Shown here: piece by piece, positions 44 through 8,742 of the stretch
Numbering within the stretch: the stretch's first letter is position 1
Layout of the letters: each line of letters opens with the position of its first letter
From: Candidatus Fermentibacterales bacterium
GTDB taxonomy: Bacteria; Fermentibacterota; Fermentibacteria; Fermentibacterales; JAFGKQ01
Length of the DNA stretch: 8,742 nucleotides
Direction of reading: 5' to 3'
NCBI GenBank assembly: GCA_016928495.1
Contig: JAFGKQ010000034.1
Coordinates: forward strand, 1 to 8,742
Notes under the pieces: model-generated
The model's database searches: none
What the model saw: the letters and a program-made list of their open reading frames with translations, nothing else
Told to the model about the DNA's origin: nothing
Translations under genes and position numbers: made by a program

Positions 44-1882
44 TCAGAACAGGTAGTTGAAGGCCGCGCTGGCGGTCCAGTAGCTCGGCCTGTCATCGGA
101 ATAGAACGTCCTGGTAGCGTTGAGTTGCAGGTTGCCCTCGCCCAGCCGCATCCTGCAGTCTACGCCCACATGGCTGAGCTGGTCCACGCTCGGAGGCAGG
201 CTGCTTCCCAGGAGGCGCCTCTCGGAGTACTCGTAGGAGTAGCTGGGTGTGATCCCGAGATCAGATCTGATATGGAACCCGGCATATACCGTCACTCTGT
301 CGGAGATCCTCTCCTCCGACCGCTCGTAGACCGAGTTCTCGTAGCTGCCCTGATCCTGGAACCTGAAGCGGTTGGTGATGCCGAGCTGAGTGCTGTCCGC
401 GGAGACACGCCGGCAGGAGAGGACGGACTCGACCCTCCTGAACAGCAGGTTGTTGCCGGTGCTGCTGTACTCCGGATACGTGAACGTGGTGTAGTCCGCG
501 CTGAGCTCGACCAATTCGTCCAAGCGCCATCCTCCCCCCAGATCGTAGGAAGCGCTGGGCGCAGCGCTGTAGGTAGAGGAGGTCTTGTTGTTGCCGGACT
601 GCTCACCGTAGATGTAGATGGTCTCCCTGCGCTGAGCCTGCAGAACCAGCTTCAGGTCCAGTCTGCCGCTGACCGGGAGCTCGGTCCGGAGGCTCATGGA
701 CTCCCGCAGCTCGTCCCTGTCGTAGTTGTCTTCGAACGGGTTCCCGAAGACGTCTTCCCATGTCCCGAAGGTGTCGTACCGGAACAGCTCCACGACCCTG
801 TCGAACGTTATCTTCGCACTGCCCGGCTGGTAGACCAGCGAGGCAAGGAAGCTCCTGGTATCCGACTGCTCCCATATCTCGAACAGGTCGGGAACGCCGG
901 TCCCTAGCTGCTTCCTGTCCGTCCTGGAGATCGAGCGCATGAGGGAGAACTCGATGCTCAGGTTGTCCAGGACCTCCCAGAGCGCCCTGCCCGTCAGGCG
1001 CCTGGTCTGCTCCAGCCTGTCCCTGACGTCCTCCTCGATCACCGTGTCGGCCTGGGATTCCCAGAACTTGTCGTGCCAGGACCAGTCGGTGCCCAGCTCC
1101 ACGGAGAGGCCCGGGGACAGGACCGGGCAGGTGACCGTGAAGCTGTGATGGTAGCTCTGGAGGTTGTTGCTGTAGCTGGAGTCGTGGTAGACGACCTGCT
1201 GCCTGCTGGCTCCGATCTCGGCCATCAGGCTTCCCCCCTGGAACAGGGCAGGGAAGCTGTAGCTCATCCTGGCGCTCAGGTCATCCTGGTTCCTGTCGGT
1301 CTGCCTTCCCATCGTCCTGTTCTCGAGGAAGCTGAGACTCGCGGATATCCTGCTCGTCAGCTTGTGGTTGACGCCTATCGAGACGTTGCTGACGCTTCCC
1401 CTGTCATCGCCGGTCAACAGGGAGTCGCCCGAGACCGTCTCGTACTCCTCGAAGTGAGTGCCCAGGCTTACCTGGAGACTGAGCCATTCCAGCGGATTGC
1501 AGCGTATCTGACCCGTGGCCGTGTTCTGGAGCTGGTCGCTTATGAGGTCCCCGTAGCGCTCCTTGATGTCGATCTGCCTCTGGAGGTTCGCCGATAGCTC
1601 CACCGAGCTTACGGGGCGATAGCTTATCGATGCGGAGCCATTCCTGAAGTCGCTGAAGCGGTCCAGGTCCTTGCTCCTGGTCGCGCTGAACGAGGCGGAG
1701 GCGCTCAGCGTGGTGTTCTCGGAGACGTACTGGACAACGGACAGCGAGTTCTTGAGGGTGCTGGACTCCTTGTACTGGGAGAGCTGGATGTCGTACTGGA
1801 TGTTGGCGGCATCGAGCCGCCCCGGGACGACCAGCAGCAGGGGCGCCAGCCCCGCGAGCAGGACCCTGCCGAACCCTCTCAC
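44..1882 (-). CDS. Predicted outer-membrane beta-barrel protein, family not recognised
   Basis: I do not recognise the family. The start chosen is GTG at 1882-1880, giving 612 residues. Its first bases overlap the rsmA stop as GTGA, and GGAG lies 7 nt upstream. An upstream ATG at 1969 would add 29 low-complexity Ala/Gly/Arg/Pro/Ser residues ahead of the signal peptide and overlap rsmA by 91 nt, so it is unlikely. From the GTG, residues 1-25 look like a Sec signal peptide: Arg2 and Arg6, then a hydrophobic run VLLAGLAPLLLVV, then RLDA before ANIQYD (cleavage probably after Ala25). The mature part of about 587 residues is rich in Ser, Thr, Tyr and Arg. It has many short alternating polar/hydrophobic segments separated by Asp/Asn/Gly-rich turns. 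It ends AAFNYLF, with Phe608, Tyr610 and Phe612 alternating as in the BAM-recognised C-terminal beta signal. No plug, POTRA, OstA or OmpA domain is visible. LptD, which neighbours ksgA in gamma-proteobacteria, was considered, but no LptA-like N-terminal domain is seen. Outer-membrane location is a strong inference; function is unknown. Confidence 0.8.
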   Translation of the reverse strand: MRGFGRVLLAGLAPLLLVVPGRLDAANIQYDIQLSQYKESSTLKNSLSVVQYVSENTTLSASASFSATRSKDLDRFSDFRNGSASISYRPVSSVELSANLQRQIDIKERYGDLISDQLQNTATGQIRCNPLEWLSLQVSLGTHFEEYETVSGDSLLTGDDRGSVSNVSIGVNHKLTSRISASLSFLENRTMGRQTDRNQDDLSARMSYSFPALFQGGSLMAEIGASRQQVVYHDSSYSNNLQSYHHSFTVTCPVLSPGLSVELGTDWSWHDKFWESQADTVIEEDVRDRLEQTRRLTGRALWEVLDNLSIEFSLMRSISRTDRKQLGTGVPDLFEIWEQSDTRSFLASLVYQPGSAKITFDRVVELFRYDTFGTWEDVFGNPFEDNYDRDELRESMSLRTELPVSGRLDLKLVLQAQRRETIYIYGEQSGNNKTSSTYSAAPSASYDLGGGWRLDELVELSADYTTFTYPEYSSTGNNLLFRRVESVLSCRRVSADSTQLGITNRFRFQDQGSYENSVYERSEERISDRVTVYAGFHIRSDLGITPSYSYEYSERRLLGSSLPPSVDQLSHVGVDCRMRLGEGNLQLNATRTFYSDDRPSYWTASAAFNYLF

Positions 1883-2724
1883 GGAAGGACTCCGGCCAGA
1901 TCGACGAAGCCCTGGGGAGGAAGCCGCTCCGCCCGCAGAAGCGGGTCTATGCCCACCTTCCGCAGGCACTCCAGAGCCTGCTCCCTCGGCATCATCCTCG
2001 AGAGGTTGTTCAGCAGTGTCTTCCTCCTGGATCCGAACGCTACGGATACCAGCCGCTCGTACCTCTTGCGCAGCTCGCCCGGTACGGCCGGCCTGGGCCT
2101 ACGGGTCAGCGAGACCACTCTCGAGCTGACGGCTGGTGTAGGGTAGAAACAGTCCCTGCCCGCGTCAAGAACCCGCGTTACCTCGAACTCGGGCCAGATG
2201 GCAAGGGCGAGTCTCCCGTAATCCTTCCCGCCGGTGAGGCACGACGCCCTCTCGGCCATCTCCCTCTGCAACATGAGAACCGCCAGGCGGACGGCGCCGA
2301 GGCCGGGCTCCAGCAGCCTGAGCAGCATGGCCGACGACTCGCTGTAGGGCAGGTTCCCGGCGACGAAGTCGAACGGGAACCCGGGAAGCAGCGAGGGCTC
2401 GAGGCGCAGGAAGTCCCCCTCGATCACGCTGAGCCTGGGATCGCCTCCGTGGCTGTCCCTCAGGAAGCCGGCGAACTCCGGACATATCTCCACGGCACAG
2501 ATGGACCTCATCCCCTCCAGCCCGAGAAGGGCCCCGGTGAGAGAGCCCAGCCCGGGCCCTATCTCCAGGAGGCTGAACCCGGACGGGCACGGCGGCTGTC
2601 CCGCGATGAAGCCGGCGATCCGGATTGCCTTGCCGCGGTCGACCAGGAAGGTCTGCCCAAGCCTGCGGCTGGGCCTCACCCCGAGCTTCCCGAGTATCTC
2701 CCTCGTCTCCCGCTCTCCCGGCAT
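1879..2724 (-). CDS. rsmA: 16S rRNA (adenine(1518)-N6/adenine(1519)-N6)-dimethyltransferase RsmA/KsgA
   Basis: Cytoplasmic SAM-dependent enzyme that dimethylates two adjacent adenines in the 3'-terminal helix 45 of 16S rRNA, a late checkpoint of 30S assembly. The 281 residues match the family length. Visible signatures in order: the GQTFLVD entry motif (23-29); SAM motif I LEIGPGLGSLTG (53-64); the ribose-binding acid Glu79 in AVEI; GDF with Asp104; catalytic motif IV NLPY (124-127); LQREMAERA (152-160) followed by DYGRLAL (168-174); YPTPAVSSRVV (194-204); and the C-terminal FGSRRKTLLNNL (230-241). Motif IV continues SES where NIS/NIT is usual. The ATG at 2724 sits 38 nt after the TatD/radical SAM stop, with GGAG 10 nt upstream, a slightly long spacing. 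Its TGA overlaps the GTG of the barrel gene. Proximity of tatD to ksgA also occurs in Bacillus-type genomes. Confidence 0.96.
   Translation of the reverse strand: MPGERETREILGKLGVRPSRRLGQTFLVDRGKAIRIAGFIAGQPPCPSGFSLLEIGPGLGSLTGALLGLEGMRSICAVEICPEFAGFLRDSHGGDPRLSVIEGDFLRLEPSLLPGFPFDFVAGNLPYSESSAMLLRLLEPGLGAVRLAVLMLQREMAERASCLTGGKDYGRLALAIWPEFEVTRVLDAGRDCFYPTPAVSSRVVSLTRRPRPAVPGELRKRYERLVSVAFGSRRKTLLNNLSRMMPREQALECLRKVGIDPLLRAERLPPQGFVDLAGVLP
1890..1893 (-). promoter_or_regulatory. Ribosome binding site deciding the GTG start of the barrel gene
   Basis: GGAG lies inside the last codons of rsmA, 7 nt upstream of the GTG at 1882. With the GTGA stop/start overlap and the signal peptide that follows directly, it fixes the start and suggests translational coupling to rsmA. 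Confidence 0.6.
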
Positions 2725-2762: not shown

Positions 2763-4133
2763 TCAGCCCCTGATCCGCAGCGGCAGGCCGAGTCTCTCCG
2801 CCGTCGCGGCCACCGCATCCGCATCGAGTCCGGGCCAGCGCACTGCGGTCGCCCTCACGCTGCAGGAGGGCACTCTCCTGGCCAGAGAGACGAAAGCGAG
2901 CAACCGGTCCCACGCGTCGGGAACGCCGGGTCTGCATACCGATTCGTAGGAAGCGGCGTCATGAGCGTTGAGGCTGATGCTGACGCAGTCCAGCTCCTTC
3001 AGCATTCTCACCGCTCCGGATTCCTCGCAGAAGGACAGCATGAGGCCGTTCGTGTTCAACCTGGTCTTCCACCCGGCGGACCTGGCCCCGGACGCCAGCT
3101 CCGTCACTGCCTCGTGTCTCAGCGTAGGCTCCCCGTAGCCGCAGAACACCAGCTCATCATACCTGTCAGCCGACAGGCAGGACATGGCTGCGGCGAGCCG
3201 CTCTGGCCCGGGGTCTCCACCCCTGTGAGCCAGCAGGTAGCCGCCTATCCCATCCTGCAGCTTCCGCACGCAGAAGAGGCAGTCGTTGTTGCAGCGCCCG
3301 GTGACGTTCACGTACACCGCGTTGCCCAGCCTGTAGACGAGGTCAGTGCGACGGTATGGTCCCAACTGGAAGGCCCTCTGCGAGTTGTCCAGGACCCGGG
3401 ATGCGGCGGCCTCGATGTCACACCCCCAGCACCTCGCCACCTCCTCGAGCACGAGCGGCAGATGTGACGGCTCGCTGGGCTTTCCCCTGTGTCCCCGAGG
3501 GGCCATGAAGGGGGTATCGGTCTCGATCAGCAGGCTGTCGGCGGGCATGGTGCGCACCATCTCCCTGAGCCCTTCACGGGAGGGATAGGTGAGACAGCCG
3601 GTGAACCCCGCGAACCTGGGTCTCTCCTGCGTCTGCTGTTCCAGAGTCCGGCGCACGGTGCCGTAGTCTCCGGTGTAGCAGTGAAGCACCACGGGCGCAT
3701 CGAGCGATACGATCTCGCCGCAGACCTCCTCTTCCGCGTCCCTGGAATGCGCTATCAGCGTCTTGCCCAGAGCGGACGATACCCGGCAGTGGCTGGCCAG
3801 CCATTCCCTCTGGGCGTCCAGTGACTCCCTGCCGGAGTGGTGGAGGTCGAGGCCCGTCTCTCCGAGAGCCACCGCCCGGGGATCCAGGGCAAGGTCCGCC
3901 AGGTCGCCGACTGCGGACTCGCCGTGAGGCGGAAGGTAGCAGGGATGGTTGCCCACGGCGGCCACTATCGAGCTGTGGGTGTGGGCCAGGCTGAGAGCAT
4001 CGAGCGACGTCTCCCTGTCTATTCCTGGAACGAGCATGAGCCGCACTCCGGCAGAGACGGCTCTCTCGAGCACGCCCTCGAGACCCTCGCGGACCGGATC
4101 CATGTAGAGGTGGCAGTGGGTGTCGAAGAGCAT
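2763..4133 (-). CDS. TatD-family metal-dependent hydrolase fused to a TatD-associated radical SAM domain
   Basis: One continuous 456-residue frame encodes two domains. Residues 1 to about 255 are a complete TatD/YcfH-type amidohydrolase-fold nuclease: DTHCHL with metal ligands His6 and His8, GNHP (61-64), GETGLD with Glu92, IAHSR with His129, VLHCYTG with His151, ETDTPF with Asp206, and RGKPSEP (216-222). Residues about 270-456 are a short radical SAM domain with the [4Fe-4S] motif CNNDCLFC (Cys281, Cys285, Cys288; Cx3Cx2C), the SAM-binding GYGEPT (332-337), and LNTNG (359-363). No SPASM or other auxiliary cluster domain is seen. TatD proteins are Mg-dependent 3'-exonucleases/DNases implicated in DNA repair and RNA processing. 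A radical SAM family associated with or next to TatD is known, but its substrate is unknown to me. The start at 4133 is right because DTHCHL falls at residues 4-9. The upstream GAGGG, 10 nt away, is a weak ribosome binding site. It lies 23 nt after purA and 38 nt before rsmA, so it is probably in the same operon. Confidence 0.92.
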   Translation of the reverse strand: MLFDTHCHLYMDPVREGLEGVLERAVSAGVRLMLVPGIDRETSLDALSLAHTHSSIVAAVGNHPCYLPPHGESAVGDLADLALDPRAVALGETGLDLHHSGRESLDAQREWLASHCRVSSALGKTLIAHSRDAEEEVCGEIVSLDAPVVLHCYTGDYGTVRRTLEQQTQERPRFAGFTGCLTYPSREGLREMVRTMPADSLLIETDTPFMAPRGHRGKPSEPSHLPLVLEEVARCWGCDIEAAASRVLDNSQRAFQLGPYRRTDLVYRLGNAVYVNVTGRCNNDCLFCVRKLQDGIGGYLLAHRGGDPGPERLAAAMSCLSADRYDELVFCGYGEPTLRHEAVTELASGARSAGWKTRLNTNGLMLSFCEESGAVRMLKELDCVSISLNAHDAASYESVCRPGVPDAWDRLLAFVSLARRVPSCSVRATAVRWPGLDADAVAATAERLGLPLRIRG

Positions 4134-6130: not shown

Positions 6131-7396
6131 TCACACGGCTTCGTCGATAGCCCTGGTCTCGCCTTCGGGCTCCCTCTCCTCGAGGGTGGGCTCCTCTGTG
6201 CGAAGAACTGCGCCAGGCGTCATGACGACGCGGGAGTAGGTGGCCTTGAGTGAAGGCAGCTCGAACATGATCTCGAGCAGGGCCTTCTCCAGAATGCCCC
6301 TGAGGCCCCTGGCGCCGCTCCCGCTCTTCCGCGCCTCCCGCGCGACGGTCCGGAGAGCCTCGTCGGTGAACACCAGCTCGACGTCCTCGAGGTCGAAGAA
6401 GTACTGGAACTGCCTGACCAGCGCGTTGCGGGGCTCCGTCATGACGCTCACCAGAGCATCCTCGCTCAGATCGTCCAGAGCAACCGTGACGGGCAGCCTG
6501 CCGACAAGCTCGGGGATGAGGCCGTAGTGTACGAGGTCGTGCGGCTCCAGCCTGTCCAGAAGGCTGCCCTCGTCGGACCTCTCCCCGAGACTGGCCCCGA
6601 AGCCCATGGCACCGCTCCTCAGCCTCGAGGTTACAAGGCCCTCGACACCGTGGAAGGCCCCCCCGCAGATGAAGAGGATGTCCGAGGTATCCAGGAGTAT
6701 GTTCTCCTGATAGGGGTGCTTGCGCCCGCCCTGGGGAGGAACGCTCGCAACGGTTCCCTCGAGTATCTTCAGCAGGGCCTGCTGGACTCCCTCGCCCGAG
6801 ACGTCCCTCGTTATGGAGGGGTTCTCGGATTTCCTCGATATCTTGTCGATCTCGTCGATGTAGATTATGCCCTGCTGCGCACGCTCGACGTCCATGTTCG
6901 TGACCTGGAGGAGCCTGAGCAGGATGTTCTCGACATCCTCTCCGACGTAGCCAGCCTCGGTCAGCGTCGTGGCATCGGCAATCGCGAAGGGAACGGAGAG
7001 TATCCTGGCGAGCGTCCGCGCGAGCAGGGTCTTGCCCACGCCCGTCGGGCCTATCAGGAGGATGTTGCTCTTCTCCACTTCCACTTCGGCGTCAGGCGCC
7101 TTCCTGGACCTCAACCTCTTGTAGTGGTTGTAGACGGCCACCGAGAGCACGCGCTTGGCCCGGTCCTGACCCACGACGTACTCGTCGAGGCCGGCCTTTA
7201 TCTCGGATGGGAAGGGAAGCTCCTTGGTCAGGAAGTCCGGCTCCGTCTTCCTGGTAGTCTCCTCGAGGATGATCTCGTGGCAGTACTGCACGCACTCGTC
7301 GCATATGGCGACGCCAGGGCCCTGGATAAGCCTGGCGACGTCGCTCACGGGGCGATTGCAGAACGAGCAGCGGGCCGGCGCCTTCTCCGGAGCCAT
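6131..7396 (-). CDS. clpX: ATP-dependent Clp protease ATP-binding subunit ClpX
   Basis: AAA+ unfoldase that recognises tagged substrates and feeds them into ClpP. The 421 residues match the usual length. The N-terminal zinc-binding domain has Cys10, Cys13, Cys32 and Cys35 (CSFC...CDEC). The AAA+ core has Walker A GPTGVGKT (116-123), pore-1 loop GYVG (149-152), Walker B IIYIDEID (177-184), the pore-2 region with [21 protein letters not shown] (195 onward, conserved), the PELVGR arginine-finger segment (Arg300), and sensor-2 [10 protein letters not shown] (361-370). The ClpP-docking loop, IGF in E. coli, reads MGF here (264-266 in SGAMGFGA). The last 25 or so residues are an acidic tail. The ATG at 7396 comes 1 nt after the clpP stop (TGACATG), with AAGGA 5 nt upstream inside clpP, which indicates tight translational coupling. 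Confidence 0.98.
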
Positions 7397-7397
7397 G

Positions 7398-8015
7398 TCA
7401 GTCCTTCATCTTCGTTTCCGACTCGCTCCTGGCCGAGAGAACGTTGTCGACCAGGCCGTACTCCACGGACTCGTCGGCATCCATCCAGAAGTTCCTGTCG
7501 GAGTCTCTCTCGATCTTCTCGATATCCTGGCCCGTATGGCTCGAGATGATGGCGTTTATCTGGTGCCTCAGCTTGATTATCTCCCTGGCCTCGATCTCGA
7601 TGTCGCTCGCCTGCCCGGCCACTCCTCCGACAGGCTGATGGATCATGACCCTGGCATGGGGCAAGATGTTGCGTTTGCCTCTGGCGCCGGATGCCAGCAA
7701 GAGAGCGGCCATGCTGGCGGCCGCGCCCATGCAGAAGGTCGCGACGTCGGGCCGTATGAACTGTATCGTGTCGTATATCGCGAGCCCAGCGGACACGGTG
7801 CCCCCCGGGCTGTGTATGTACATGTTGATGTCCTTCTCGGGATCCTCGCCCTCGAGGAAGAGCAACTGAGCAACCACCACGCTGGCGGTGTGGCTGGTGA
7901 TGGCGTCACCTATGAAGACGATCCGCTCCTTCAGCAGCCTGGAGTAGATGTCGTAGGCTCTCTCGGTGCTGCCGACCTTCTCCACTACGAACGGTATTAT
8001 CGACAACCGGGCCAC
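7398..8015 (-). CDS. clpP: ATP-dependent Clp protease proteolytic subunit ClpP (Ser-His-Asn triad)
   Basis: Self-compartmentalised serine protease that forms the chamber of ClpXP. The 205 residues align without gaps to E. coli ClpP over the part I compared (offset 10). Landmarks: [14 protein letters not shown] (21-34), [14 protein letters not shown] (69-82), nucleophile Ser101 in MGAAASMAA, and His126 in RVMIHQP. The third triad residue, Asp185 in the E. coli precursor (ERDTERD), falls on Asn175 here (ERDSDRN; codon AAC at 7493-7491). The rest of the block, VEYGLVD (184-190), is normal. Listeria ClpP1 is a known example with a natural Asn at this position, so the protein need not be dead. The start is GTG at 8015, directly abutting the tig TAG (TAGGTG). 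GAAGGG lies 3 nt upstream, a short spacing. No better start exists, because the conserved IIPFVVEK begins at residue 6. Few residues precede that block, so any propeptide is minimal. Confidence 0.97.
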
Positions 8016-8742
8016 CTACCCTTCACCGGGTCCGGAATCGCTGTCGCCCTCCACCAGGATCCACTCCCAGCCGGCATCCTGTTCCCCGTCGGCCGAGCGG
8101 TCCGCTTCGATCGGGACCTCCTCTATCCTGGCCGCGGACGTGACGAGCTCGAGGGCCCTGGCGTTCCGGATCCGGTCCCTCACGGACGCGTCCGACTCGC
8201 CCTCTCTCCGGGCCTTCTCGATGTCCTCTCCGCTCACCTCGATCCCCTCGGCAAGGGCGATGCCACGAAGAACGAGGTATTCCCTCGCTCTCGACTCGGC
8301 GAGTCTGAAGGCTATCTCGCTGGTCGCCTTCTGCTGCTCCTCGTCGCCGGGCGTGTCTTCCACCGCCCCCAGGATGCCGATCGCGATGTTCGCTACCATA
8401 TACCTCGGTGGATCGACTTCGTTCCGCTCGACGAGCTCCTTCCGCGCCTGGGTCTCGAGCTGCTCGCGCGCCTCCTTCTCGAACCTCTCCCTGAAGCTCT
8501 CGCGAAGCGACTTCCTCAGATCCTCGAGGGACTCGAACTTGCCCACCCTGGCCGCGAACTCGTCGCCGAGCTCCGGATAGCTGGGCTCGAGGACCTCGAG
8601 GATGCGGAACCTGTGGCTGTCCGCCAGCTTGCGGTCGGCCGGGAGATCGTCGCCCTCGGGCCCCTTCGCGAGATAGGAGATCCTGGCCACGAAGCGGTCC
8701 CCTGCCTGAAGCCCCCTGACTATGCCATCCATGCCAGGGCCG
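8016..8742 (-). CDS. tig: Trigger factor, C-terminal part (5' end beyond window)
   Basis: Ribosome-associated chaperone that shelters nascent chains. The window holds the last 241 or so residues; the frame stays open through 8742, so the ribosome-binding N-terminal domain and most of the PPIase domain lie outside. The Met at 8732 is internal: GPGMDGIVRGLQAGDRF matches the family's PG-(M/F)-(E)DG-(I/L)-x-G-x-x-AG-(D/E) segment of the FKBP-like domain. After it come the PPIase end strand (SHRFRILEVLE), the PELGDEFAARVG linker equivalent to ELPEL-EFAKRFG, a long charged helical segment (69-105 from that Met) and the helical C-terminal chaperone domain with VDPPRYMV in place of the usual VPxxLI. 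It ends in an acidic, Gly/Ser/Asp-rich tail. The length from this segment to the stop is close to that of E. coli. Its TAG abuts the clpP GTG. tig upstream of clpP-clpX is a widely conserved order. Confidence 0.94.
   Translation of the reverse strand, partial: GPGMDGIVRGLQAGDRFVARISYLAKGPEGDDLPADRKLADSHRFRILEVLEPSYPELGDEFAARVGKFESLEDLRKSLRESFRERFEKEAREQLETQARKELVERNEVDPPRYMVANIAIGILGAVEDTPGDEEQQKATSEIAFRLAESRAREYLVLRGIALAEGIEVSGEDIEKARREGESDASVRDRIRNARALELVTSAARIEEVPIEADRSADGEQDAGWEWILVEGDSDSGPGEG
8019..8024 (-). promoter_or_regulatory. Ribosome binding site for the GTG start of clpP
   Basis: GAAGGG lies within the last codons of tig, just before its TAG, and only 3 nt (the stop codon itself) separate it from the GTG. 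The spacing is shorter than usual, which suggests that terminating tig ribosomes help initiate clpP. Confidence 0.45.

Follow-up and report, generated by a model that had tools for sequence, protein, structure and literature searches.

A recent paper terms ClpP proteases with a Ser-His-Asn catalytic triad rare and gives the general triad as Ser-His-Asp/Asn (PMC12900304); another calls them uncommon (PMC9765437). In ClpP1 of Listeria, a natural case, Asn172 favours an inactive heptamer and the N172D exchange yields a more active tetradecamer. With its Asn in place, this ClpP1 is active only together with ClpP2, and in the crystal structure of the ClpP1P2 complex the Asn triad adopts an active-site alignment (PMC5361862). 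The D172N derivative of S. aureus ClpP is described as compressed and inactive, with the active extended state being restored by ADEP (PMC9035409, PMC8182300, PMC7496096). A further variation of the third residue is found in P. plecoglossicida ClpP1 (Ser-His-Pro), whose low activity was reported to stem mainly from something other than this residue (PMC12900304).

Here, we analyzed a stretch of 8,742 nucleotides (the window), which corresponds to contig C118 of a 2.3 Mb draft genome (G000, 81% complete) and carries a clpP gene with Asn at this position of the triad.

A ClpP with a Ser-His-Asn triad encoded in a tig-clpP-clpX operon

The features of the window relevant to this analysis are the following:

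6131..7396, minus strand: clpX, 421 aa, with zf-C4_ClpX, AAA_2 and ClpB_D2-small domains and an N-terminal zinc finger
7398..8015, minus strand: clpP, 205 aa, GTG start, triad Ser101-His126-Asn175
7491..7493, minus strand: codon AAC of Asn175 (minus-strand read), at the column of E. coli Asp185
7491..7499, minus strand: Asp173-Arg174-Asn175, that is, the acidic and arginine residues that we take to be the oligomerisation sensor, beside the triad Asn
7638..7640, minus strand: codon CAT of His126, at the column of E. coli His136
7713..7715, minus strand: codon AGC of Ser101, at the column of E. coli Ser111
8016..8732, minus strand: C-terminal portion of tig (trigger factor), truncated at the contig edge (Trigger_C, E 1.8e-10)

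The clpP product matched the Pfam CLP_protease profile (PF00574) with 272 bits (E 3.4e-81) over positions 3-180 of 182, that is, over the whole domain. As modelled with AlphaFold2 (mean pLDDT 89), it has the ClpP fold, and the model superimposed on solved ClpPs, including that of E. coli (1yg6, 2fzs), at about 1.0-1.5 Å over ~190 residues. HMMER aligned the protein gap-free with E. coli ClpP across residues 6-199, pairing a 10-residue motif with E. coli ERDTERDRFL and thereby Asn175 with Asp185. The same register was obtained by MAFFT with many relatives (Ser101, His126 and Asn175 on E. coli Ser111, His136 and Asp185). Both alignments agree with the initial annotation of the window, which had placed Asn175 on the catalytic Asp. 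The Ser nucleophile and the His base were both present in their motifs, and the third residue conformed to a Ser-His-Asp/Asn triad, not to one with strict Asp.

The columns of His126 and Ser101 held His and Ser, respectively, in each of the 136 sequences of Asp or Asn type that were tallied. Among 32 sequences, the Asp171 column and Arg174 were invariant and Asp173 was at least 90% conserved; the E. coli counterparts of Asp171 and Asp173 are Asp181 and Glu183. Since Asp-type ClpPs, too, have acidic residues in both columns, neither residue is a displaced triad acid, and Asp171 or Asp173 as the true third residue, a possibility that the initial annotation had raised against its own reading, was rejected. 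A sensor of oligomerisation in ClpP has been described elsewhere (PMC9035409). On the minus strand, the codon at 7493-7491 reads AAC, as previously noted, and a sequencing error there appears very unlikely because 40 related genomes share the Asn, via both Asn codons.

In the window and at 40 of 40 related loci checked, tig, clpP and clpX lie on one strand, with tig upstream of clpP, which is the arrangement of a housekeeping ClpXP operon and is in line with the standard operon proposed in the initial annotation. In the window ClpX, the position of the IGF loop, which docks to ClpP, is occupied by the sequence MGFGA. A ClpC-like protein, which has an LGF motif, and a ClpB-like protein are encoded in the genome as well. 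By profile, fold and operon, the window protein is a ClpP encoded by an ordinary gene, and it is the main housekeeping ClpP of its host. This uncultured bacterium has Candidatus Aegiribacteria, Sabulitectum and Fermentibacteraceae as its closest relatives with a name, which places it in Candidatus Fermentibacterota.

Comparison with described ClpPs

The window ClpP resembles E. coli ClpP (1yg6, 2fzs, 6wr2) in fold, length, Ser and His residues, sensor Arg and location next to clpX, and is 57% identical to it in the fold alignment. It differs in having Asn175 where the E. coli protein has Asp185. With Listeria monocytogenes ClpP1 it shares a natural Ser-His-Asn triad, with Asn at the same column (PMC5361862, PMC12900304). 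This parallel had been drawn from the outset and is correct, although the likeness is limited to that one residue: Listeria ClpP1 accompanies ClpP2 as an accessory paralogue, is inactive alone, has no N-terminal chaperone-binding motif and is 44% identical to E. coli ClpP (PMC5361862), whereas the window ClpP is the sole ClpP and is encoded within tig-clpP-clpX. Thus, of the two marks of a Listeria-type accessory ClpP1, it has the Asn in place of the triad Asp and lacks a co-occurring second ClpP of the Asp type.

The S. aureus D172N protein carries the identical substitution at the same column, but this was engineered into an Asp-type background and keeps the protein in a compressed, inactive form unless ADEP binds (PMC9035409, PMC8182300). 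Pseudomonas plecoglossicida ClpP1 likewise has an altered third triad residue; however, the residue is Pro instead of Asn and the protein is an N-terminally shortened accessory paralogue (PMC12900304).

Asn and ClpP copy number within the order

Besides the window, the Asp185 column held Asn in all 40 same-order relatives with a readable motif, one frameshifted gene (G041) included. The codons employed were AAT (25) and AAC (16), with one genome being counted twice, and no Asp codon (GAY) was found. As the codons drift synonymously without reversion, the residue itself is under selection in the order, and Asn is the normal state in Fermentibacterota. Intact same-order clpP genes also retain Ser and His. 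The initial annotation had treated the Asn as a singular oddity; it is instead fixed in the lineage and, as described below, routine in other phyla.

The search for a second ClpP (E <= 1e-20) covered 41 same-order genomes, of which 24 have a completeness of 90% or more. Apart from the clpP of the operon, it yielded matches in three genomes (G039, G040 and G041). The G039 protein is a divergent, Asp-type, full copy whose contig carries phage structural genes, and was rejected as a second host ClpP because it is phage-encoded. This contig (C9; L070:1556-2140, with L190) is binned with a Fermentibacterota genome; its terminase-, portal- and capsid-like genes were recognised by eye. Also rejected were the two copies in G040, an inverted duplicate within one 6.8 kb contig with equal score and length, and the extra match in G041, which corresponds to the two halves of a frameshifted clpP. 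The latter gene (L072) lies in two overlapping frames, owing to a frameshift or an assembly error, with the Asn in the downstream piece. Weaker matches in the same search (E about 1e-5 to 1e-7) were distant relatives, not ClpP. No second chromosomal (host) ClpP was therefore found at E <= 1e-20 in the 41 same-order genomes, and the window's own genome has one ClpP. The mixed ClpP1P2 system that had been predicted for the case of a second clpP is thus unsupported.

Asn-type ClpPs outside the phylum

Among 54 genomes that each represent one other family, the main ClpP had Asn in 10, and nine of these 10 had no other match better than about E 1e-7. Five further phyla were surveyed in genomes with a completeness of 95% or more; L017, L021 and L020 are part of the counts given here. 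Asn was present in 8/10 genomes in the phylum of G048, 5/5 in that of G044, 3/3 in that of G071, 27/30 in that of G086 (the rest being two Asp and one Ser) and 15/19 in that of G097; about 46 of the five-phyla genomes combined Asn with the absence of a second ClpP at E <= 1e-20. On this sequence survey, Asn is the majority state in the five further phyla, mostly as the sole ClpP. Carriers by name include Balneolaceae, Eisenbacteria, Fibrobacteres, Chitinivibrionales and WOR-3. Outside the order, Ser and His were retained in 24 of 24 Asn-type sequences tallied.

Both states may occur within one family, as in f77, where G130 and G137 have Asp and G136 has Asn. On a protein tree of 152 sequences, Asp and Asn must have been exchanged at least 10 times; how many of the origins are independent is uncertain given that the deep branches are poorly supported. 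The initial annotation had named, as grounds for abandoning its reading, a survey with Asn routine in active stand-alone ClpPs of the lineage. Our survey largely bears this out, Asn being fixed in the lineage and, without a second ClpP, routine in other phyla, while the word 'active' derives from conservation.

Two other patterns were seen in these genomes. The main ClpP of G117 (L240) has a Ser-His-Ser triad with the motif DRSYFM, in a genome that has a second ClpP too. Furthermore, G112, G145 and G162 (at least 96% complete) gave no ClpP match at E <= 1e-20, although their phyla otherwise have ClpP.

In a limited search of open-licence papers, we found no prior paper noting Asn as a phylum-wide ClpP state. 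Entire phyla have as their single ClpP a form that the literature calls rare or uncommon and whose studied examples are inactive by themselves. Either the Asn functions well in such proteins, or the ATPase gates the core; both options bear on how ClpP stays silent and on ClpP activators and inhibitors.

Search for compensating residues

Comparison of Asn- and Asp-type sequences gave small p values at the columns of E. coli residues 104, 126, 146, 152 and 157, which sit in the handle helix and the core. Columns 146 and 157 showed no change in the G048 and G086 phyla, and the well-supported branches provided only one independent Asn/Asp pair for the comparison. In this column-by-column analysis, no compensating column recurring across all Asn clades was found. 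The five columns were rejected as compensation, as they are not recurrent in all Asn clades and kinship explains them.

Proposed mechanism and alternative explanations

Most likely, the window ClpP forms a homotetradecamer that hydrolyses peptides with its Ser-His-Asn triad. Ser101 would attack and His126 would act as the general base, while Asn175 would hold and orient His126 by a hydrogen bond and, unlike Asp, would supply no negative charge. We infer that the enzyme is active because all else is conserved and no other ClpP is present. The Asn may shift the particle at rest to a less active form, either compressed or heptameric, and docked ClpX, or the ClpC-like ATPase of the genome, may supply the active extended state. 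Such gating is suggested by analogy with Listeria ClpP1 and S. aureus D172N, that is, one natural paralogue and one engineered mutant. ADEP, which restores the latter, occupies pockets used by the ATPase loops. Taking activity and gating together, the window ClpP is probably a working, homomeric, sole ClpP with a Ser-His-Asn triad that is less active at rest until a Clp ATPase docks. The broader notion that Ser-His-Asn represents a widespread second stand-alone ClpP design, normal in several phyla, whose core is off until a Clp ATPase docks, is more tentative, and we regard it as quite possible but short of probable.

The strongest alternative is mere tolerance of the Asn, in the absence of gating. 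Asn would then be fully equivalent to Asp, with other contacts holding the extended tetradecamer, and the enzyme would be active and ungated like E. coli ClpP. Asn and Asp exchange inside single families and phyla without gene loss or paralogue gain, in keeping with such equivalence, and the third residue of P. plecoglossicida ClpP1 was not the main cause of its low activity (PMC12900304). On the other hand, no compensating column recurs in all Asn clades, and Asn172 of Listeria ClpP1 and D172N of S. aureus both disfavour the active state. Full equivalence seems to us rather doubtful. What counts against our preferred reading is that both studied Asn cases are poorly active or inactive by themselves.

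Loss of function, a hidden paralogue and deamidation are each unlikely. Exchange of Asp for Asn strongly lowers the activity of trypsin and traps S. aureus ClpP in an inactive form, both of which would suit a window ClpP that is no longer proteolytic and acts as a scaffold or regulator. We nevertheless give this little credence, in view of the Ser and His retained in every Asn-type sequence tallied outside the order and in the intact genes within it, of the operon with clpX retained in 40/40 cases and of there being no other ClpP able to do the work. A second ClpP that is needed, as ClpP2 is for the Asn-bearing ClpP1 of Listeria (PMC5361862), might have been missed in a draft genome that is incomplete; yet the same-order relatives, including the 24 that are at least 90% complete, are without a second host ClpP, and the only full extra copy sits on a phage-like contig, which makes a ClpP1P2 system highly improbable. 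Equally improbable is the deamidation of Asn175 to Asp after translation, which would yield a working Ser-His-Asp enzyme. This one-atom change is compatible with the sequence, but in the Asn-type ClpPs read the Asn is followed by Phe, Tyr, Asn, Lys or Cys and never by Gly or Ser, the residues that create fast deamidation contexts. We retain the working, probably ATPase-gated sole ClpP as the preferred reading.

Other features of the window and its genome

No RNA was found in the window with Rfam. One ORF (2763-4133, minus strand) fuses a TatD DNase domain to a radical SAM domain, and a 641-aa ORF (44-1969, minus strand) gave an outer-membrane beta-barrel match only, below threshold. Elsewhere in the same genome (contig C12), the Lon protease L195 contains an in-frame tandem repeat, TARRIAGGK/R, in about four copies, placed between its ATPase and protease parts.
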